Assembly: GCF_004217565.1 (NCBI RefSeq)
Contig: NZ_SHLA01000001.1
Coordinates: 3,162,001 to 3,226,000, forward strand
Direction of reading: 5' to 3'
DNA: 64,000 bases
Origin: Zhihengliuella halotolerans
GTDB taxonomy: Bacteria; Actinomycetota; Actinomycetes; Actinomycetales; Micrococcaceae
The notes below the pieces were generated by a model. The model was not told the DNA's origin, searched no databases, and was given only the letters and a program-made list of their open reading frames with translations. The translations under genes and the position numbers were made by a program. Of this stretch, positions 31,727 through 42,131 are shown in pieces; within the stretch, counting starts at the first letter, position 1, and every line of letters begins with the position of its first letter.

Positions 31727-32746
31727 TCAGCCAAGCAGCGGATGCATTGCCAGGTAGAGCAGCCAGCCCAGCCCCAGGCAGATGACCGGCCCCGTCAGCC
31801 AGTAGGTGGCTACACGCAGGACGTTCGCCCAGATGACGGACTCGAACCGTTGATTGGCACCCGCGCCGACGATCGAGCTCGTGACGGCCTGCGTAGTCGA
31901 AAGCGGCAGATGGAGCACCAGTGCCCCGGCGAACAGCAGCAGCGCGGAGACGCCTTGGGCCGTCGCGCCGCGCAGCGGGTCGAAGCGCACCAGCCGGTAC
32001 CCGATCGTGTGGGTGATCCGCCAGCCGCCACCGAGGGCGCCGAGCCCCATGCAGAGGGCCGCCGTCAAGGGGGCCCACCACGGGATGGAATCGGTCGTCT
32101 CCGTGCCGGTGTAGATCACGAAGGCGAAGGTGAGGAGGGCGGCGTTTCGCTGTCCGTCCTGCAGGCCGTTGCCCAGTGAGACGGCGAGTGACGTGACCGC
32201 CTGCGCGCCGCGACTGACCCGGGTGACGCGCGACGAGGTCGAGTGGCGCATGAACCACGTGGCCGGGATCGTCACGGCGAAGGACACGATGTACGCGACG
32301 ACCGGAGTGACGATCGTCGGGATGAGGACGCCGCCGAGGATCAGGAGCGGGACGCCGATCGGGTCCTCAGGGTGCAGCAGGGCCGAGGCGAGCAGGGCGC
32401 CGGCCAGCCCGGCGAAGAGCGCGTGTGTCGACGAGTGCGGAATACCGCGGAACCATGTCCAGAGCAGCCACGCCGTCGCGGAGATTATCGCCGCCAGCAG
32501 CAGACCGAGTCCCGAGGCGGGGGAGTGGTAGTGGAAGGAGGCCCGGTCCAGCAGCGCGAGCGAGAACGACGTCGAGAGCAGGGTTCCGATGAACGCGAAG
32601 GCCGCGGCCCCGACGACGGCGATGCGCGGCTGCAGCGCGCCGGTGCGGACCGCTCCTGCGATCGCGTTCGCGACGTCACGGAACCCGTTGAGGACGGTGA
32701 ATCCGCAGGCTCCGGCGATGACCAGAACAAAGACGAAAGTGTCCAT
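31727..32746 (-). CDS. pit: Low-affinity inorganic phosphate transporter (PiT family)
   Basis: A 339-residue proton- or cation-coupled phosphate transporter with the two PiT signature repeats, GFRDVANAIAGAVRTGAL near the N-terminus and SLGNGLQDGQRNAALL in the second half. Ten or so helices are present. It starts seven bases after the DUF47 stop, so the two form an operon. Convergence with pstSCAB puts the high- and low-affinity phosphate systems tail to tail. Confidence 0.92.
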   Translation of the reverse strand: MDTFVFVLVIAGACGFTVLNGFRDVANAIAGAVRTGALQPRIAVVGAAAFAFIGTLLSTSFSLALLDRASFHYHSPASGLGLLLAAIISATAWLLWTWFRGIPHSSTHALFAGLAGALLASALLHPEDPIGVPLLILGGVLIPTIVTPVVAYIVSFAVTIPATWFMRHSTSSRVTRVSRGAQAVTSLAVSLGNGLQDGQRNAALLTFAFVIYTGTETTDSIPWWAPLTAALCMGLGALGGGWRITHTIGYRLVRFDPLRGATAQGVSALLLFAGALVLHLPLSTTQAVTSSIVGAGANQRFESVIWANVLRVATYWLTGPVICLGLGWLLYLAMHPLLG

Positions 32747-32752
32747 CGAGGA

Positions 32753-33370
32753 CTAGGACTCTTTGACGAGCACGCGGCCCAGATGATCGGCCACGGCGTG
32801 CAGGCGCGTGCTGGCGGCGAGCATCTGGTCGGCGACGGCCCGGTGCCGGATGATCGTCGACGAGCGCTGTAGATCTGCTGTCTCTCCGACCCAGGCGTGG
32901 TGGGTGCGGCCGACCCGCTTGTTCAGGCGCATGAGCTGCAGCCAGGTGTCCTCGAGGTCGTCCAGCCGGTCCAGGCTGCCCAGCGCCGACGTCGTCAGGG
33001 TGGCCTGGCGGCCGACGAGTTCGAGCTGATCGGCGGCGCGGTGGGAAATCCACGTGAGGTCGCCGCTCGTCATGAGTTCGCCGACGCTGCGCAGCTCGCC
33101 GACGGTGTCGTGCAAGAGGCGGGAGAACGTGTACAGGTCCTCGCGCGGGACCGGGGTGACGTAGCTCGTCCGCAGTTGCGTCAGGAGTGCGTAGTGCGTG
33201 TCGAGGGCCTGCATCTCGGCCCGCTCGAGCGCGTCGAGCTGCTCCTGGTTGTCCTCGGTGAGGACGCCGAGGATCTCGGAGAGTACCTGCACGCAATCCT
33301 GGATGTTGGTGCAGAGGTCGCCCAGCAGCTGTAGGCCGCGGGTCTCCTGAGGGAACAGACTGAATTTCAC
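32753..33370 (-). CDS. DUF47/PhoU-like phosphate transport regulator
   Basis: A 205-residue all-helical protein of the DUF47 family that partners Pit transporters. The start is set at the GTG at 33370 because the resulting N-terminus (KFSLFPQETRGLQLLGDL) matches the conserved KxxLFPxE opening. Upstream ATGs at 33415-33418 fall in an AT-rich TATGAT that looks like a promoter. Long helices follow: QLDALERAEMQALDTHYALL, LYTFSRLLHDTVGEL, STRLHAVADHLGRVL. It probably adjusts Pit activity or folding. No DNA-binding domain is present. Confidence 0.85.
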   Translation of the reverse strand: MKFSLFPQETRGLQLLGDLCTNIQDCVQVLSEILGVLTEDNQEQLDALERAEMQALDTHYALLTQLRTSYVTPVPREDLYTFSRLLHDTVGELRSVGELMTSGDLTWISHRAADQLELVGRQATLTTSALGSLDRLDDLEDTWLQLMRLNKRVGRTHHAWVGETADLQRSSTIIRHRAVADQMLAASTRLHAVADHLGRVLVKES

Positions 33371-33640
33371 TGGATAAGACCGCCGAAGGGGACGAGGGGA
33401 GCAATCGGTCAACATCATACGTGCCGAAGATGTCCCGCCGCCGAGGGGGCGGAGAATTGCGTGAAACCCGCTCCAGGGGCGATCGCCTGCGGGAAGTGGA
33501 GTGAACGGCGCCGAACCGGGAACGCCTCTCGGCGGAAGGCCGCTCGAAGCGGCTTAATGTTGAAGCCCGGGGGTCACCGCAGTCCGGCGCCGATCTCCAG
33601 TCTTCTCCTCCACGCGCCACGTGTCAACATTTCGGCGGGA

Positions 33641-34300
33641 TCAGTCGAGTTCTCCGCGCCGCCACATCTTCGCCGAGGACTCGAGATCTTCCGCGGTCTT
33701 GAGGAGCTGGCCGGCGTCGCGGGTGAGCCGTCTCGCGTGCTTGTCGTTGCTTGGCTCGAGGTCGTGCGCGTGTTCGGCCTGCCCGAGAGCGATCACCCGG
33801 CAGAAAGCGGCCGTCCGCTCGAGGGCGACGTCGAACTCGCCGTCGAACGCGCCCGAGAGGATCGAATCCGCCATGGCCCGGAGTTCGTTCGCTCCGGGCG
33901 GTTCGGCGGCGCCCGCCACAGCGTGCGCGACCTGGGCGGTCCGGCGGCCCGCTGCGAAGTACGAGGCCATGCGGTCCGGATCATTGACGACGGCGGCGCG
34001 CAGCGCGTACAGCCTCCAGAGGGCGCCGGGCAGGGTGTGCGCGGGGCTCTCGGACCAGAGTTCGGCGACCGCCTCCAGACCCTCCTTGTCGGCGAGCTTC
34101 ACGAGCCGCTCCGTGACCTGCGGATCCTCGGAACCGCGGCCGTGGTGCACCAAAGCCTGGGCGGCGAGATGCGCGGCTTCGGAGACGCGGGCCGGGTCCG
34201 GGCCGCCGGCGAACGGCTCGAAGTCGATGGGCGCGAACGGCTTCGGCTTGTGGTGCCGGAACGGTGCGGCCTGATGCTGGCGTGCTGGGTTCGCGTTCAT
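33641..34300 (-). CDS. Hypothetical protein, helical
   Basis: A 219-residue soluble protein without a recognised family. The first 40 residues are rich in His, Pro and Lys (HQAAPFRHHKPKPFAP) and likely disordered; the rest is helical and Ala-rich (LAAQALVHHG...VAELWSESPAHTLPGALWRLYALRAAVV). No signal peptide, membrane helix or metal motif is seen. It is alone on its strand, between the DUF47 promoter region and the tRNA. Confidence 0.75.
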   Translation of the reverse strand: MNANPARQHQAAPFRHHKPKPFAPIDFEPFAGGPDPARVSEAAHLAAQALVHHGRGSEDPQVTERLVKLADKEGLEAVAELWSESPAHTLPGALWRLYALRAAVVNDPDRMASYFAAGRRTAQVAHAVAGAAEPPGANELRAMADSILSGAFDGEFDVALERTAAFCRVIALGQAEHAHDLEPSNDKHARRLTRDAGQLLKTAEDLESSAKMWRRGELD

Positions 34301-34575
34301 GCGGCTCAGGATACTCCCGTGGCCGGATACTTGCGATGGGTGCGGTCCGGGTGTGGACGGAAACGCAGTGTGCCGTCGTCGTCGCCCTGCGAAACGTCTT
34401 GCTCGAGCCATGCGAATGGTAGCGTTCCCGGCCTGCGAAACGTATGGTTCGCGACCTGTGGACCGTAGCGTCCGGGCGGTGTCGTCCGCGCGGTTGGATG
34501 CTGCGCAGCGGCGGATCGACGCGGGTGGTGGTGGACGTGCGGTAGCATGGATCGCGGTTCTTTTCGAAGGACCAC

Positions 34576-34648
34576 GGGCCTTTAGCTCAGTTGGTAGAGC
34601 ACTGGACTTTTAATCCATTGGTCGCGGGTTCGAGCCCCGCAGGGCCCA
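34576..34648 (+). tRNA. tRNA-Lys (anticodon UUU)
   Basis: A 73-base cloverleaf. The acceptor GGGCCTT pairs with AGGGCCC, the D-stem is GCTC/GAGC, and the anticodon loop CTTTTAA has TTT at 34609-34611. The T-arm is GCGGG-TTCGAGC-CCCGC, and A73 is the discriminator. The top of the anticodon stem (C27-U43) is unpaired. The full CCA is not encoded (ACCG follows). Confidence 0.97.
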
Positions 34649-34654
34649 CCGCCG

Positions 34655-34706
34655 ACGCCCCGGCCGGAACCGTTTCGTGCGGTTTTCGGCCGGGGCGTTC
34701 TTTGTC
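34655..34706 (+). terminator. Rho-independent terminator of tRNA-Lys
   Basis: A perfect 12-base-pair stem ACGCCCCGGCCG (34655-34666) with CGGCCGGGGCGT (34687-34698), followed by TTCTTTGT. The loop carries a second AACCG/CGGTT stem. It is one of the strongest terminators in the window. Confidence 0.92.
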
Positions 34707-34762
34707 CCACTGGGTTTTGGCCTCAATGCTTGCTACCCCGATGTGCGGGGTGCAGATTGCGG

Positions 34763-35938
34763 TCAGCCGATCAACAATTTCATTATGCGTTTCCACCATG
34801 GCTCGCGAGTTGCGACGGGCGAGACAAAAGGCTGCGCATCGGGCTCTGGGGGCACGCGGGCAGGCGGCGCCGTGTGAGGAGTATCCTCAGAAGCCTCGGT
34901 CCGTTCGTCTCGGATTCGCGCGTCGTCCACAGCGGCTTGTTCGGCGTCCGCGTGCTCCCCTGCGGCACGATTGAGTTCTTCCAGATCCGCGCAATCTGCA
35001 TTGGTCTTCTTTTCAGTCGTCTCGCGACGCTGACGTTCCTCGTCTGCGGCTTGGATGGCCGCCTCGTATTTGGCGACGTCAGCGTTCAGCAGCCAGCCGG
35101 CCCACATTCCCCCCTGGCGTCCGCGGATCAACCGTGCTTTGTACCATCGTCGCTCGTCATTGAGGACTTGACTGATGAACTTCGTTAACGGTAACTGCGT
35201 TGATGTGAATGAACGACGGTCGGGGCTGAGTTTTCCTATGGTCACGCCCACATGCAATTGAACTTCGCATCGGCTGTCGCCTTGCCAGATAGAACGGAGC
35301 TGGTTGGCGGTCGGGACTTCCGAACTGCCGCTGACCCGATATCCGAGTCGCACGCAAGGCTCGGTAAATAGTGGGTCACCATGGTTCTTGCCTTTCCCGG
35401 TGTTCTTCTGTCGGGCTGACTCTGGAAGGAACCACAGTGTTTGCATACCATTCCACTCACGTGCCTTCCGGCGAGCGGTGAAGTTCGTGGATACTCGCTG
35501 CACCTCGAATGCGTAGGGTGGGGTTGAGTCAACGTGTAAGTCGACGCAGGCACCACTGAAGCCCACCTCAAGCCGGGCTGCAAACCCGAGCTCACGGCAT
35601 ATCTCGAGTAGCTTTTGCTGTAGCCACAGGTGCTCGTCCGTCATCGGCCCTCCGCCACCCGCCGAAACGAAGTGATTGCAGCTGCTGCCTGATACATCAG
35701 AGAGGAATCTCCTCTTCTTCTGGCTCATCTTGGCGCTGAGTCGCTGAGTGCATTGATCGTCTGGGCAAACTAAGATACGTCCAGTGCGGTGGACGTGCGT
35801 CCAGTCCTCATCGTTGTGGATAGAGCGCACGAATGGCTCACCCTGAACGCGCAGAAAGCGCTTTCTCACTTTGTCACGCTGAGCAGCGTTCGTCGGTCTG
35901 TGGTTTTTCCCGGAATGGTTCTGGCGCCGTTGCGACAT
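34763..35938 (-). CDS. Orphan CoiA-like nuclease with zinc motif and charged tail
   Basis: A 391-residue protein resembling competence protein CoiA. An N-terminal possible zinc site (Cys58, Cys63, Cys87, His89) precedes a restriction-endonuclease-like core: DEHLWLQQKLLEI (101-113), Glu124, Asp133 in CVDLHVD, then FEVQ (144-147) and TARRKAREW. Glu/Asp...Asp...ExQ fits a PD-(D/E)xK nuclease. A region beginning WYKARLIRGRQGGMW follows, then a probable coiled coil (YEAAIQAADEERQRRETTEKK) and a C-terminal WWKRIMKLLIG that could touch the membrane. No other competence gene is nearby. Base composition is clearly lower in GC than its neighbours, and it sits just past a tRNA terminator, both signs of transfer. 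Confidence 0.72.
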   Translation of the reverse strand: MSQRRQNHSGKNHRPTNAAQRDKVRKRFLRVQGEPFVRSIHNDEDWTHVHRTGRILVCPDDQCTQRLSAKMSQKKRRFLSDVSGSSCNHFVSAGGGGPMTDEHLWLQQKLLEICRELGFAARLEVGFSGACVDLHVDSTPPYAFEVQRVSTNFTARRKAREWNGMQTLWFLPESARQKNTGKGKNHGDPLFTEPCVRLGYRVSGSSEVPTANQLRSIWQGDSRCEVQLHVGVTIGKLSPDRRSFTSTQLPLTKFISQVLNDERRWYKARLIRGRQGGMWAGWLLNADVAKYEAAIQAADEERQRRETTEKKTNADCADLEELNRAAGEHADAEQAAVDDARIRDERTEASEDTPHTAPPARVPPEPDAQPFVSPVATREPWWKRIMKLLIG

Positions 35939-36228
35939 GCCCTTAATTATCCATGTGAGGCCGACATTTTGGGTTGCAGGGAGGACATTTCACTCTAGAG
36001 AGACGCAAGAAAAGGCTAGGACGTTTGAGTTCGGTCCGGCGCCCCAACGAACCTCCGGAAGGCGAGGGCAGTAATAACGACCGGACTGAAGCGGGGTGCG
36101 GGCAAGACGGGCGAACGCACGACCCGGGCAGCTCCCATTGATTGCAGACCCAGACGTACGAGCCGTTCCTACCGTGCTAAGGAGGCCGCTATCGCCAGGC
36201 CTTTCAGGGCCGGGATTCCTGCGGCGTC
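35939..36228. other. Gene-free stretch upstream of metH with a long inverted repeat
   Basis: About 290 bases of below-average GC at its left end. A 10-base inverted repeat, TTCGGTCCGG (36030-36039) and CCGGACTGAA (36081-36090) with one wobble, encloses 41 bases that hold further short complementary segments. No open frame with a ribosome site is apparent. I could not match it to a cobalamin, SAM or SAH riboswitch by eye. It may be a leader of metH, a small RNA, or debris of the adjacent island. Confidence 0.4.
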
Positions 36229-39200
36229 ATGAGCCGCGACACCTGGGGCCCGTCGGTTTATTCTGATGCGGTGATCCCAACGCTTGAAGGCCGCGCCGCC
36301 GAACTCCTGCACGCCATCCGCACCCGCGTCGTCGTCGCCGACGGCGCCATGGGCACGATGATCCAGGAGGCCGAGCCGACACTCGACGACTACGAGCAGC
36401 ACGAGGGCTGCAACGAGGTCCTCAACGCGACCCGGCCGGACATCATCGCCGCGGTGCACGACGCCTATCTCGAGGTCGGCGTCGACGCGATCGAGACCAA
36501 CACCTTCGGCGCCAACTGGTCCAACCTCTCCGACTACGGGATCGACGACCGCATCCGCGAGCTCGCCCGCGCGGGCGCGGCCCTGGCGCGGGAGCGCGCC
36601 GACGCTTATACGACGGCGGAGCACCCCCGCTGGGTGCTCGGCGCGATGGGCCCCGGAACCAAGCTGCCGTCGCTGGGGCACACCACCTACGTGCACTTGC
36701 GCGACACGTTCGCCGAGCAGGCCGTCGGACTCATCGAGGGCGGCGTGGACGCCCTGCTCATCGAGACCAGCCAGGACCTGCTGCAGACCAAGTCCGCCGT
36801 CAACGGCTGCCGCGCCGCGATCGAGCAGACCGGACGCGCGGTCCCGATCATCACCTCGGTCACCGTCGAGACCACGGGCACGATGCTCATGGGCTCCGAG
36901 ATCGGGGCGGCCCTGACGACGCTGCAGTCCCTCGGCGTCGACGTCATCGGCCTCAACTGTGCAACCGGGCCGGACCTGATGAGCGAACACCTGCGCGTCC
37001 TGGCCCATCACTCCGAGACGCCGCTCGTGTGCATGCCGAACGCGGGCCTGCCCGAGCTGGGCCCGAAAGGTGCGGTCTATCCGCTTCAGCCGGCCGAACT
37101 CGCCGCCGCGCACGCGCAGTTCGTCAAGGAGTTCGGTCTCGGTCTGGTCGGCGGCTGTTGCGGCACGACGCCGGAGCATATGCGCCAGGTCGTCGAGGCC
37201 GTGCGCGGCCAGCAGCTGCCCGAGCGCACCCCGGAACGGCAGAACGGAGTCGCGTCCCTGTACTCGCACACCGACCTCTCGCAGGAGGCCTCCTACCTGG
37301 CGATCGGTGAGCGCACCAACTCCAACGGCTCCAAGGCCTTCCGGGACGCGCTGCTCGAGTCCCGGTGGGATGACATCGTCGACATCGCCCGCGCCCAGAC
37401 CCGCGAGGGTGCTCACCTGCTCGACGTGTGCGTCGACTACGTGGGCCGCGACGGCGTGACCGACGTGCGCGAGGTCGTCTCGCGGCTCGCAAGCGCGTCG
37501 ACCCTGCCGCTCGTGATCGACTCGACGGAACCCGAGGTCATCCGGGCCGGCCTCGAGCTGGTCGGCGGCCGCGCCGTCGTGAACTCGGTGAACTTCGAGG
37601 ACGGCGACGGGCCGGCCTCGCGTTTCCAGCGCATCATGCCGGCGGTCAAGGAGCACGGCGCCGCCGTCATCGCGCTGACGATCGACGAGGAGGGGCAGGC
37701 GCGCACGGCCGAGGGCAAGGTGCGCATCGCCTCCCGCCTCATCGATACGCTCGTCGAGCAGTGGGGCATGCGGGTCGACGACATCATCGTCGACGCGCTG
37801 ACCTTCCCCATCGCGACGGGCCAGGAGGAGACGCGCCGCGACGCGATCGAGACGATCGACGCGATCCGCCAGATCACCGCCCGCTACCCGGGCGTGCACA
37901 CGACCCTCGGGGTCTCCAACGTGTCCTTCGGCCTGAACCCGGCCGCACGCACCGTGCTGAACTCGGTGTTCCTGCACGAGGCCACGGCCGCCGGTCTCGA
38001 CTCGGCGATCGTGCACGCGGCGAAGATCCTGCCGCGCACCGCGATCCCCGACGAGCAGTGGCAGGCCGCCGAGAACCTCGTGTGGGACCGGCGGGAGTAC
38101 GACGACGAGGGGAACCTCACGCACGATCCGCTCTCCCATCTGCTGGAGACGTTCTCGGGCGTCGACTCGGCCGCGCTGCGCGATCAGCGGGCCGCGGAGC
38201 TCGAGGCCCTGCCCGTGGGGGAGCGGCTCGAGCGCCGCATCATCGACGGCGCCCGCAAGGGTCTCGAGGCGGACATCGAGACGGCGCTCGCCGACGGGAT
38301 GGCCGCGCTCGACATCGTGAACACGCACCTGCTCGGCGGCATGAAGGTCGTCGGTGAGCTGTTCGGGTCCGGTGAGATGCAGCTGCCGTTCGTGCTGCAG
38401 TCCGCAGAGGTCATGAAGGCCGCCGTCGCGCTGCTCGAGCCGCACATGGAGCGAGTCGAGGGCGAGGAAGACGCCTCGAAGGGCGTGATCGTGCTCGCGA
38501 CCGTACGCGGGGACGTGCACGACATCGGCAAGAACCTGGTAGACATCATCCTCACCAACAACGGTTACACGGTCATCAACATCGGCATCAAGCAGCCGAT
38601 CACCGCAATGATCGAGGCGGCCGCGGAGCACAACGCGGACGTCATCGGCATGTCGGGGCTTCTCGTGAAGTCGACTGTCGTGATGAAGGAGAACCTCGAG
38701 GAGCTGGCCTCGCGCGGCCTGGCCGAGAAGTGGCCGATCCTGCTCGGCGGTGCCGCTCTGACCCGCACGTTCGTCGAGGACGACCTCGCCTCGCAGTTCC
38801 CCGGGGTCGTCCGCTACGCCCGCGACGCGTTCGAGGGCCTGCGCCTCATGGAACCCCTCGTCGCCGTCGCGCGCGGGGCGGATCCGGAGTCCGTGGGGCT
38901 GCCCGCACTGAAGAAGCGCCGCCACAACGTGGTGACCGTGACGCAGACCCCGGACGAGGAGCTGCCGGCTCGCTCCGACGTCGTCGCCGACAACCCCGTG
39001 CCGACGCCGCCGTTCTGGGGCACGCGCATCGTCAAGGGCATCCAGCTCGCCGACTACGCCGCATTCCTCGACGAGCGGGCCACATTTATGGGCCAGTGGG
39101 GGCTCAAGCCCGGCCGCGGTGCCGACGGGGCCTCCTACGAGGAGCTCGTCGAGACGGAGGGACGCCCGCGGCTCGCAGAATGGCTCGAGCGCGTCGCCAC

Positions 39201-39852
39201 GGATCGGATCATGGACCCGACGGTCATCTACGGGTACTTCCCGGCCTGGTCGGAGGGGAACGACGTCGTCATCGCCCACCACGGTGCCACGATGGGCGGC
39301 CTCGGCGCGCCCGACGGCGGCTCGGGCGGCGAGCCCGGCACGGAGCGGCTGCGGTTCACGTTCCCCCGGCAGCGCCGCGACCGGCACCTGTGCGTCGCGG
39401 ACTTCATCCGGCCGCGCGAGTGGGTGGAGGAGACGGGCCAGTTCGACGTCTTCCCGGTCCAGCTCGCGACGGTCGGCGACGACGTCTCCGGGCACACCGC
39501 GAAACTGTTCGAGGCCAACCGCTACCGCGAGTACATGGAGCTGCACGGGCTGTCCGTCCAGCTCACGGAGGCGCTTGCGGAGTTCTGGCACTCGCGGGTG
39601 CGCGACGAGCTCGGCTTCGCCGGCGAGGACCCGGACGACGTCGACGGCATGTTCAAGCTCGACTACCGGGGCTGCCGGCTCTCGCTCGGCTACCCGGCCT
39701 GCCCGGACATGGAGGACCGGCACAAGGTCGTGGAGCTGCTGCGGCCCGAGCGTGTAGGAGTCACGTTGAGCGAGGAACTGCAGCTGCACCCGGAGCAGTC
39801 GACGGACGCGTTCGTGCTGCACCACCCGGAGGCCACGTACTTCTCCGTGTAG
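36229..39852 (+). CDS. metH: Cobalamin-dependent methionine synthase MetH
   Basis: Transfers a methyl group from methyltetrahydrofolate to homocysteine through methylcobalamin. The 1207-residue chain has all four modules. The homocysteine domain has zinc ligands Cys244 and Cys310-Cys311 (GGCCGTTPEH). The pterin domain runs to about 620 (AIGERTNSNGSKAFRD). The B12 domain has DVHDIG, with cobalt-ligand His764. The reactivation domain (about 900-1207) ends in RLSLGYPACPDMEDR, binding S-adenosylmethionine. A GTG at 36271, preceded by TATTCT, could be a leaderless start 14 codons later. The whole gene also carries a long antisense open frame, which is a composition artefact. Confidence 0.96.
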   Translation: MSRDTWGPSVYSDAVIPTLEGRAAELLHAIRTRVVVADGAMGTMIQEAEPTLDDYEQHEGCNEVLNATRPDIIAAVHDAYLEVGVDAIETNTFGANWSNLSDYGIDDRIRELARAGAALARERADAYTTAEHPRWVLGAMGPGTKLPSLGHTTYVHLRDTFAEQAVGLIEGGVDALLIETSQDLLQTKSAVNGCRAAIEQTGRAVPIITSVTVETTGTMLMGSEIGAALTTLQSLGVDVIGLNCATGPDLMSEHLRVLAHHSETPLVCMPNAGLPELGPKGAVYPLQPAELAAAHAQFVKEFGLGLVGGCCGTTPEHMRQVVEAVRGQQLPERTPERQNGVASLYSHTDLSQEASYLAIGERTNSNGSKAFRDALLESRWDDIVDIARAQTREGAHLLDVCVDYVGRDGVTDVREVVSRLASASTLPLVIDSTEPEVIRAGLELVGGRAVVNSVNFEDGDGPASRFQRIMPAVKEHGAAVIALTIDEEGQARTAEGKVRIASRLIDTLVEQWGMRVDDIIVDALTFPIATGQEETRRDAIETIDAIRQITARYPGVHTTLGVSNVSFGLNPAARTVLNSVFLHEATAAGLDSAIVHAAKILPRTAIPDEQWQAAENLVWDRREYDDEGNLTHDPLSHLLETFSGVDSAALRDQRAAELEALPVGERLERRIIDGARKGLEADIETALADGMAALDIVNTHLLGGMKVVGELFGSGEMQLPFVLQSAEVMKAAVALLEPHMERVEGEEDASKGVIVLATVRGDVHDIGKNLVDIILTNNGYTVINIGIKQPITAMIEAAAEHNADVIGMSGLLVKSTVVMKENLEELASRGLAEKWPILLGGAALTRTFVEDDLASQFPGVVRYARDAFEGLRLMEPLVAVARGADPESVGLPALKKRRHNVVTVTQTPDEELPARSDVVADNPVPTPPFWGTRIVKGIQLADYAAFLDERATFMGQWGLKPGRGADGASYEELVETEGRPRLAEWLERVATDRIMDPTVIYGYFPAWSEGNDVVIAHHGATMGGLGAPDGGSGGEPGTERLRFTFPRQRRDRHLCVADFIRPREWVEETGQFDVFPVQLATVGDDVSGHTAKLFEANRYREYMELHGLSVQLTEALAEFWHSRVRDELGFAGEDPDDVDGMFKLDYRGCRLSLGYPACPDMEDRHKVVELLRPERVGVTLSEELQLHPEQSTDAFVLHHPEATYFSV

Positions 39853-40953
39853 CTACTGCACCGCGGCGAACAGCTGCATGATCTCCGGGCCCATCTCCAC
39901 CTGCGTGAGCAGGACCAGGAAGGAGCCGTCGGGGTCGGCGTGCATCGTGGTGCCCAGGCCGCCGGACCAGCCGAACCGGCCCGCGTGCGGGCCCGAAGTC
40001 TGTACGGAGACACCGAAACCCCAGCCGGTGCCCTCCCAGAAGCCGGGGAAGAAACTGTCCGGTGTCTTGGCGGCGGACGGCACCTGATCGGCGGTCATCG
40101 CTGCGACCAGGCCGGGCTCGAGGAACGCCCGACCCTCGTGGCGGCCGCCGGCGGCGAGCATGCGGGCGAAGCCCGCGTAGTCGCGGATGGTGGAGACCAG
40201 CTCCGAGTGGCTGAGGTCGAAGGGCTCGGGCGCGACGTAGAACCCCGCACCGGCCGGTTCGATCTCGACCAGGGCGGCGCCGACGTCGTGCCGGTACGCT
40301 GCGGGGAGCCGGTGGGCCGCCTCCGGCGGGACGGCGTAGCCGGTGTCGACCATGCCGAGCGGACCGAACACGTCGCCGCGCAGGTGCTCCTCCAGGGAAC
40401 CGCCGACGAGGCGGCCGAGCAGGATGCCGAGCAGGCCGAAGGAGTGGTGGTACCGCCAGCCGGTGCCAGGTTGGAAGGCGAGCGGCAGCTGCCCGAGCGC
40501 GTCCAGCCATGCCTGGGCGCCGACGTCGAGCGGTTCCTGGCCGGCCTGGGTGCCGTTGGCGATCATCGCCTCCTGCAGCGGGCACGGCGAGGTCATCATG
40601 CCGTAGCCGGAGGTGTTGGTCAGCAGGTGCCGGACGGTGATCGGGCTGTCCGCGGGGACGGTGTCGTCGAGGGGAGATTCGGGCGTGCGCAGGACCCGCC
40701 GGTTCGCGAGTTCGGGCAGCCAGGCGGCGACGTCGTCGTCCAGATCCAGGTGCCCGGCCTGGACCAGCCGCAGCGCGGCGATCGCGAGGACGGGCTTGGT
40801 CATCGACTGGATGCGCACGATCGCGTCGAGCGGCAGGTCCCCGGCCGCGACGTACTCGGTGGGACCGCCGGCGGTGCCGAACGCCGCGAGGGCGCCGGGG
40901 ACCGTGCCCCGGGCGACGTGTTCTTCCAGGACCTGTCCGAGTCTGTTGGCCAT
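39853..40953 (-). CDS. Serine hydrolase, class C beta-lactamase/esterase fold
   Basis: A 366-residue member of the beta-lactamase-related serine hydrolases. The nucleophile motif is SMTK (near residue 50, RIQSMTKPVLAIAAL). The Tyr motif is WRYHHSFGLLG, and the third motif is GWSGGLGTT instead of KTG, which points to an EstB-like esterase or peptidase rather than a true lactamase. No signal peptide is visible, so it is probably cytoplasmic. It is convergent with metH, and its stop immediately follows that gene's end. The physiological substrate is unknown. Confidence 0.88.
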   Translation of the reverse strand: MANRLGQVLEEHVARGTVPGALAAFGTAGGPTEYVAAGDLPLDAIVRIQSMTKPVLAIAALRLVQAGHLDLDDDVAAWLPELANRRVLRTPESPLDDTVPADSPITVRHLLTNTSGYGMMTSPCPLQEAMIANGTQAGQEPLDVGAQAWLDALGQLPLAFQPGTGWRYHHSFGLLGILLGRLVGGSLEEHLRGDVFGPLGMVDTGYAVPPEAAHRLPAAYRHDVGAALVEIEPAGAGFYVAPEPFDLSHSELVSTIRDYAGFARMLAAGGRHEGRAFLEPGLVAAMTADQVPSAAKTPDSFFPGFWEGTGWGFGVSVQTSGPHAGRFGWSGGLGTTMHADPDGSFLVLLTQVEMGPEIMQLFAAVQ

Positions 40954-40991
40954 GACCCGATCGTAGCCGGGCGGCCAGCGCGCGGACAGGC

Positions 40992-41591
40992 CTACGCGCG
41001 GACGGGGGCGGTGCTGACCGCGTGCGCGCGCTCGAATCGTTCGACGAGCGAGAGCAGGCCGGCCGCGAGGGGCAGGAGCACCAGATTGCCGATCAGCATC
41101 GTGCGCAGGAACGGCAGGCCCGCGGCGTAGCTGGCGAGCAGCCCGTCGAGCCCGGCCGGGTAGAAGGTCCCGCGGCCCTGCAGCCAGACGCCGACGTTGG
41201 TCCACAGGTAGAACCCGATCGAACTCCCCGCTCCGAACATGAGCGACGTCGCCACGCGGCGCGCGCCCGTGCTGCGCCGCGTCCACAGGGCCCCGAGGCC
41301 GATGAGCAGCCACGCGGACCACGTGAACACGAAGATCCACGAGTTGCCCAGCACGACGTCGCTCACCGCGACGACCGCCAGGGGCGCGAGCGCCGCCAGC
41401 CGATGCCGCAGCAGGCCCGCCGCAGCGAACGCGGCGAAGGTCGAGAACTCGAGATTCGGTGGGGCGCCGAGGTCGTTCTTGACGAGCCGCCAGACGACAG
41501 CCGCGGCGACGAGCAGCACCGCGGTGACGGGGCGCCACCAGCGGGCCGCGAGGTCCTGCAGGGTCAGATCGCGTGGCCGGACCGGGCTCAT
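40992..41591 (-). CDS. S-component-like membrane protein (DUF6580-like)
   Basis: A 199-residue protein with five or six helices (about 22-40, 48-64, 68-85, 90-105, 120-140, 165-190). The block APPNLEFSTFAAFAAAGLLRHR, followed by VVAVSDVVLGN, is the DUF6580 pattern. That family looks like the substrate-binding S components of ECF vitamin transporters. The ATG overlaps the stop of the DUF4430 lipoprotein gene as ATGA, tying the two together. No ECF ATPase or T-component gene is nearby. Its closeness to metH makes a corrinoid the natural guess for the substrate; this is inference. Confidence 0.75.
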   Translation of the reverse strand: MSPVRPRDLTLQDLAARWWRPVTAVLLVAAAVVWRLVKNDLGAPPNLEFSTFAAFAAAGLLRHRLAALAPLAVVAVSDVVLGNSWIFVFTWSAWLLIGLGALWTRRSTGARRVATSLMFGAGSSIGFYLWTNVGVWLQGRGTFYPAGLDGLLASYAAGLPFLRTMLIGNLVLLPLAAGLLSLVERFERAHAVSTAPVRA

Positions 41592-42022
41592 TCGAACGTG
41601 TCCAGCTTCCACTCGATCTCCTGGCCGTCCTCGGTTTCGAGCGTGCCGGCGCCCTCCTGGGCGAACTCGCCGTCGACGTAGAGGGCCCAGAACTCGTTCG
41701 CGTCCGCGTCCACCGCCCGGCCGTCGATGCCGGTCACGAACGCCATCTCGCCTTCACCCGAGACCTCCGCCTCGGGGTCGTTCTCCAGCAGGAGCTCGAG
41801 CACGGTCTTCCCGTCCTCGCCCTCGTAGGTGAAGGTCTCGCTGGCGCTTTCGCTGGCGGGCGCGGTGGCGGTTTCCGACGCCGCGGGCGACGTCGTGGTT
41901 CCGGGGTCGCCGGTCCCGCCGGAGCAGCCGGTCAGGAGGGCGAGGGACAGGAGGCCTGCGGCCAGAGCGGCGGCATGGCTCTTCGGGATCGTGCGGAAGT
42001 CTGTGGTCACGCCGTTAATCAT
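41588..42022 (-). CDS. DUF4430 lipoprotein, possible vitamin-capture protein
   Basis: A 144-residue exported lipoprotein. The lipobox LLTGC follows a short signal peptide, then a Ser/Thr/Ala linker, then a DUF4430 domain (VLELLLENDPEAEV ... FVTGIDGRAVD ... EFWALYVDGEFAQEGAGTLETEDGQEIEWKLD). DUF4430 corresponds to a C-terminal domain found in transcobalamin-like proteins and in bacterial surface proteins. The ATG at 42022 is taken; a GTG at 42010 would give a tidier signal peptide. It is co-translated with the S-component-like protein, so it probably captures a ligand for it. Confidence 0.75.
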   Translation of the reverse strand: MINGVTTDFRTIPKSHAAALAAGLLSLALLTGCSGGTGDPGTTTSPAASETATAPASESASETFTYEGEDGKTVLELLLENDPEAEVSGEGEMAFVTGIDGRAVDADANEFWALYVDGEFAQEGAGTLETEDGQEIEWKLDTFE

Positions 42023-42131
42023 GCTGTATGGCCAAACCCGTCGACAAGCAGTGTTTCGTGTGAGTCCCCGTGCGACGGAATGCGTCGCGCGGACGACGAC
42101 GGCCGGCCGAGGCACGAGACGGATCGCTCAT

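Follow-up and report, generated by a model that had tools for sequence, protein, structure and literature searches.

A low-GC insert after a tRNA-Lys gene of Zhihengliuella halotolerans carries a single CoiA-like gene, probably for a mobile defence-type nuclease

We analyzed a window of 64,000 nucleotides from the genome of Zhihengliuella halotolerans and found, just after a tRNA-Lys gene, a foreign insert whose only gene, encoding a CoiA-like protein, was horizontally acquired. This gene is probably a mobile, stand-alone defence-type gene for a metal-dependent PD-(D/E)xK DNA nuclease of the CoiA-like E-x-Q variant. Since its relatives are sporadic and lie in small islands, some beside anti-phage genes, an uncharacterised nuclease acting in defence against phages or plasmids is the most likely role; we infer this role and its target with less confidence than the nuclease activity itself. 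The coordinates of the features are given in Table 1.

Table 1. Features of the insert, of its borders, of the encoded protein, and of comparable islands in other genomes. Positions are those of the window unless preceded by a locus name.
Feature	Position	Strand	Evidence or remark
tRNA-Lys(ttt), adjoins the insert	34576-34650	+	ARAGORN and Rfam; left border conserved in 5/5 genomes of the genus
tRNA terminator hairpin with T-rich tail	34655-34698	+	Inverted repeat
Insert, ~1.5 kb, 58.4% GC	about 34697-36203		Absent from the closest congener, G002 (~10 bp there)
CoiA-like nuclease gene, 391 aa	34763-35938	-	ORF list, family alignments, structure model
Amphipathic Trp-rich basic C-terminal helix, residues ~380-391	34766-34801	-	Conserved in most relatives; hydrophobic moments
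Long predicted helix, residues 285-345, coiled-coil-like	34904-35086	-	Model
Predicted PD-(D/E)xK core, residues 101-173	35420-35638	-	Model, structural matches, invariant residues
Putative zinc cluster, Cys58/Cys63/Cys87/His89	35671-35767	-	Conservation in 18 relatives
Non-coding upstream part of the insert, 59% GC	35939-36203		Base composition, promoter and RNA scans
metH (cobalamin-dependent methionine synthase; name presumed from the sequence by eye), right border, accessory	36229-39852	+	2/5 genomes of the genus
DISARM-like island of G004, adjoining tRNA-Lys	L095 12722-18194 and L092 65-6721		DrmA, DrmB, Vsr, C5-methylase, UvrD-type helicase, two unassigned genes
mutM-3'-end islets bounded by a displaced 3'-end copy	L029 9615-12927; L018 4384-10714; L049 7507-11429; L096 4419-8637		Several actinobacterial families

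The limits of the insert come from the comparison with the closest congener (G002), which aligns with positions 32001-34345, 34536-34696, and 36204-42103 of the window at 90-94% identity. The left limit of the DNA in common with this genome is 34696 (blastn against L015, G002), and the tRNA-Lys terminator and metH are around 10 bp apart there, i.e., the site is empty. Hence, a block of 1.5 kb with one gene is present in the window and absent from G002, as expected from the possible single-gene island proposed in the initial annotation. The observation is more than chance, because a congener lacks exactly this stretch. The comparison of the tRNA-Lys locus among relatives, which had been suggested as a check, gave a congruent picture: a search of the other genomes of the genus for the CoiA-like gene found it in none (0/4), and the right side of the locus is variable.

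The composition of the insert had been described as poorer in GC than the flanks, and the GC content is indeed 0.584 over 34697-36203 against 0.699 for the whole window. Codon usage is also unusual. Among the 48 genes of the window with at least 150 aa, the CoiA-like gene has the lowest GC3 (0.64, for a mean of 0.856 and a standard deviation of 0.060) and the second lowest codon-usage likelihood. Besides its 391-aa ORF, no ORF of at least 80 aa in the insert resembles a gene, and neither a sigma-70-like site nor a known RNA was found in the upstream part (35939-36203). At the ends of the insert we found no direct repeats, no inverted repeats or TIRs, no duplication of the 3' end of the tRNA, and no integrase. 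The element thus has neither the duplicated tRNA 3' end nor the integrase gene of tRNA-integrated islands. The link with the tRNA made in the initial annotation is therefore correct only as a position: the tRNA, which has the usual sequence of the genus, shows no duplicated end, and an integrase is lacking. The same annotation considered a remnant of an integrated element, a reading that we do not favor given the intact ORF and the conserved active site.

The tRNA-Lys junction is variable across the genus. Its left side, with a pit-like and a DUF47-like gene, a third gene, and the tRNA-Lys, is common to the five genomes, and the DNA to the right of the tRNA is different in each of them. Only two of the five have metH, so the methionine synthase beside the insert is itself accessory. 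In one congener (G004), the same tRNA-Lys is followed by genes for Vsr, DrmB, DrmA, a UvrD-type helicase, and a C5-cytosine methylase, with PADLOC matches to DrmA (E=2e-197) and DrmB (E=8e-62). This DISARM-like island shows that the tRNA-Lys is the border of a hotspot that has defence cargo in one congener. It occupies the same chromosomal junction as the insert of the window, as an alternative defence cargo, but it is a multi-gene system and the two have no gene in common. No defence gene adjoins the copy in the window.

We rejected the idea that the tRNA was exchanged upon insertion. The window and G001 have identical sequences of this tRNA, that of G003 is one base away, and G002 is the odd one; as the window has the common version of the genus, the tRNA itself was not replaced. 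Compared with the genus version, the tRNA-Lys(ttt) of G002 (L015, 7688-7762) has several substitutions, among them paired ones in the anticodon stem, and it is similar to the version found in other genera. A second small variable spot lies at positions 34346-34535 of the window, where 190 bp upstream of the tRNA are replaced in G002 by around 42 bases.

The protein has the residues of a PD-(D/E)xK nuclease. Cys58, Cys63, Cys87, His89, Asp133, and F144-E-V-Q147 are all where they had been read in the initial annotation. In an alignment of 18 sequences, the invariant residues are D45, C58, C63, R77, C87, G96, G97, E102, H103, and W105, together with E124, E145, Q147, R156, R160, G164, and W169. 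H89, R148, and T151 are nearly invariant, His89 being present in at least 90% of the sequences, and D133 is invariant among the nearest six relatives. The AlphaFold2 model, made with 11 sequences, is of moderate quality (pLDDT 70.8, pTM 0.55). Its core (residues 101-172) has the order H-E-E-E-H-E, i.e., the alpha-beta-beta-beta-alpha-beta topology of PD-(D/E)xK enzymes, with elements assigned by DSSP at H101-116, E120-125, E132-137, E142-146, H153-162, and E166-172 and key residues E102, E124, D133, E145-x-Q147, R156, and R160. In this model the acidic residues expected to be catalytic (E124, D133, and E145-x-Q147) lie on adjacent predicted strands. Coiled coils aside, the best VIA-align rows are mostly PD-(D/E)xK nucleases with Z of 4-6.4, including Can2, Bax1, McrC, Holliday-junction resolvases, EndoMS, and VRR_NUC, matches that are weak taken singly and mutually consistent. 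The predicted topology, these structural matches, and the similarity of half of the relatives to CoiA_nuc all speak for the PD-(D/E)xK core that had been suspected initially. Taken together, fold and conservation suggest that the protein is a PD-(D/E)xK nuclease, probably active and with a putative zinc site.

The place of the protein among known families is less direct. The single sequence gave no credible match in Pfam, NCBIfam, PADLOC, or PHROGs, and its weak PHROG and NCBIfam matches involve mostly the coiled coil and the tail. No PADLOC-DB 2.0.0 model matches it at E up to 10, no solved structure was matched by sequence, and no match was found with PF06054 (CoiA_nuc, curated cut-off of 20.3 bits). 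Nine of the 18 relatives match CoiA_nuc weakly (E up to 1, the best being 1.2e-4) over the same core, and one of them (L016) scores 20.2 bits, just below the cut-off. CoiA has been described as a PD-EXQ active-site variant with a conserved arginine (PMC1189080). The protein of the window has E145-V-Q147, R156, and R160, of which E145, Q147, R156, and R160 are invariant in the 18 sequences. Hence, it is outside PF06054 by profile score and, as far as the model and the alignment tell, CoiA-like in fold and active site. The two families (PF06054 and COG4469 on the side of CoiA) have the same PD-(D/E)xK core, the same E-x-Q active site, and the conserved arginine. They differ in that the protein of the window has a C-terminal part with a long helix and an amphipathic tail, and in that its family is mobile, sporadic, and unlinked to competence genes.

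The long C-terminal extension that had caught attention at first is present in the model, as a helix at residues 285-345 and a C-terminal helix at 381-390. The intervening residues 346-380 form a linker of low confidence that is very variable between relatives. The last ~eleven residues of the protein, PWWKRIMKLLIG, combine aromatic, basic, and aliphatic residues. Versions of this tail such as PWWRRLLGFFVG, GSWWKAIADWFRRM, and GWFKRLINWFTS end other relatives, and most relatives have one even if the linker is not conserved; it is absent in the Arthrobacter pair (L017 and L030). In eight of ten tails, the hydrophobic moment is higher than in at least 95% of shuffles; the figure is 92% for the window and 70% for Brachybacterium. 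As 8% of the shuffles are equally amphipathic, the window's own tail helix is not exceptional. The arrangement is similar to that of short helices that target proteins to the membrane, e.g., in FtsA. The tail may perhaps tether the protein to the membrane, a hypothesis that we hold more weakly than the nuclease.

To gather relatives, we searched whole genomes (one per species), named contigs, plasmids, and phage records, and gene calls in the relatives were made with a simple ORF picker. A first scan of the contigs with the single protein of the window revealed no relatives, and the scan with the family alignment gave 12 loci. Five credible relatives were found among 394 other genomes of the family; in the order sample, 11 of 395 others have a relative (one fragmentary), as do 2 of 394 others of the class sample (one weak). 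They are thus rare (1-3% of the genomes at the family and order levels), and none was found in viral contigs. A match in G169 (8e-4) was discarded as due to chance, the frame at that place being a DJ-1/PfpI-like gene. A relative in a presumed phage (L096; MT835574.1, 56087-68971) was also set aside as viral: the record contains mutM, rnc, coaD, and AbiD and has 87-90% identity with Kocuria DNA, and this entry deposited as a bacteriophage is probably mislabelled bacterial DNA.

The phylogenetic tree of the relatives groups the gene of the window with those of Brachybacterium, a member of the Dermabacteraceae (100/100), and G504 (100/98). Members from the Micrococcaceae are in several separate places, and the copies of Propionibacteriaceae and Nakamurellaceae nest with Yaniella. 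This scattered placement points to horizontal transfer. The nearest relative, that of Brachybacterium, has 52% identity and keeps all catalytic and Cys/His residues. The dN/dS is 0.33-0.49 in the closer pairs and 0.18 between the window and Brachybacterium, a rough value since dS is saturated. This range (0.18-0.49) suggests purifying selection rather than decay.

Most relatives stand alone among ordinary genes, and several of these have no defence neighbor. A sister clade is found near mutM, in Yaniella, Nakamurella, Jonesia, Ruania, two Kocuria, and G521. Its members are usually between the full mutM and a displaced copy of the mutM 3' end, although in the Kocuria and Ruania loci the stretch analyzed covers only the 3' fragment and the displaced copy was not found in G521. 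The flanking repeats of mutM are 116 bp at 99% in Nakamurella, 236 bp at 95% in Yaniella, and 142 bp at 84.5% in Jonesia, and no integrase was seen in the small islets. Four of the seven mutM-associated relatives are accompanied by AbiD/Abi_2 (PADLOC E of ~5e-52 or better in the three that were scanned), and the Nakamurella islet has little beyond AbiD and the CoiA-like gene. Islets of 3-6 kb thus contain both AbiD and relatives of the gene of the window, but AbiD is a distinct protein family and the insert of the window has none. On a Rhodococcus linear plasmid, a relative lies close to AbiEi/AbiEii. Four Kocuria genomes (G194, G204, G117, and G286) have several copies of the mutM 3' end, ~1-50 kb apart, which suggests arrays of successive islands at mutM. 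Since three of the four (G204, G117, and G286) lack the CoiA-like gene, mutM is probably a general hotspot, in which the nuclease is cargo and not the mobility enzyme. A literature search with limited wording found no account of mutM islands in actinobacteria.

The DISARM-like island at the same tRNA and the AbiD islets at mutM place the family in hotspots with defence genes, an association that is partly ascertainment because the context was surveyed mainly at loci found through the CoiA-like gene. This context lends weight to the stand-alone defence nuclease offered in the initial annotation, if not to the point of proof. In such a role, the amphipathic Trp/Arg/Lys tail, which comes after the long helix and the flexible linker behind the core, would keep the enzyme on the inner side of the membrane, the Cys3-His putative zinc module in front of the core and the unassigned domain at 195-284 would recognize foreign DNA that is entering or replicating, and the PD-(D/E)xK core would cut it. 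There is one published precedent, an anti-phage system of E. coli with a CoiA domain, reported as a remote match by HHpred (Vassallo et al. 2022, PMC9519451), so that defence by CoiA-domain proteins is not categorically new. That system has the CoiA domain in phage defence, as proposed here, but the likeness is at the level of the CoiA domain and there is no PADLOC match to the protein of the window.

The AbiD genes beside members of the sister clade are also what one would expect from an abortive-infection or toxin-like effector, i.e., a nuclease kept inactive until an infection, perhaps sensed at the membrane, sets it to degrade the DNA of the host; the predicted long helix and tail could then be used for oligomerisation or sensing. 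We find this unlikely, since the insert of the window has no partner or antitoxin and the AbiD genes may be independent cargo. Quite unlikely is an accessory competence factor, which would process DNA from natural transformation like the pneumococcal CoiA. The E-x-Q nuclease core is that of CoiA, the similarity to CoiA_nuc is present if weak, and the genome has comEC, but comEC is in the five genomes of the genus and the CoiA-like gene in one, which makes such a role less likely. The gene is also low in GC and recently acquired, the protein itself is below CoiA_nuc detection, and linkage or co-occurrence with competence genes was not seen: none is beside the gene in the loci that we read. The absence of comEA, comEC, and dprA from the neighborhood, remarked on at the outset, holds, comEC being ~2.1 Mb away. 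It is very unlikely that the gene is an inert remnant of illegitimate recombination, devoid of selected function: flanking repeats and a recognisable promoter are absent and codon use is atypical, yet the 391-codon ORF is intact, all catalytic and Cys/His residues are kept at 52% identity to the nearest relative, and dN/dS is low both in the nearest pair, where it is rough, and in closer pairs. Least likely of all is a role in the mobility of a minimal selfish element, e.g., as a homing-type nuclease opening its own insertion site. In its favor, the gene is often alone in inserts, the small islets have no integrase, and one clade is mostly at a single site (mutM). Against it, the sites of different members are unrelated (between tRNA-Lys and metH, in an AAA ATPase gene, close to tRNA-Leu, and in many intergenic places) and the three Kocuria genomes above have several mutM-3'-end copies without the gene.

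The defence-type nuclease can be carried one step further, to a proposal that is possible but rather doubtful: CoiA-like nucleases encoded by single genes and tethered to the membrane would form a new family, present in several families of Actinomycetota, and would destroy entering phage or plasmid DNA, with CoiA and a class of immune nucleases sharing one ancestry. If confirmed, an actinobacterial family with no PADLOC match and weak Pfam similarity would join the single-gene immune systems, and the DNA-uptake factor CoiA would be linked to immunity. Two hotspots can be named for the search of defence genes: the site after the tRNA-Lys in this genus and the 3' end of mutM in several actinobacterial families.

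Two further loci have relatives in comparable settings. One relative lies inside a duplication of part of an AAA ATPase gene (L052, 9269-11446; 81 bp at 93%), apparently another insertion bounded by a gene fragment. Another (L051, 9088-10516) is found ~200 bp after a tRNA-Leu(gag), antisense to it, like the gene of the window after the tRNA-Lys.
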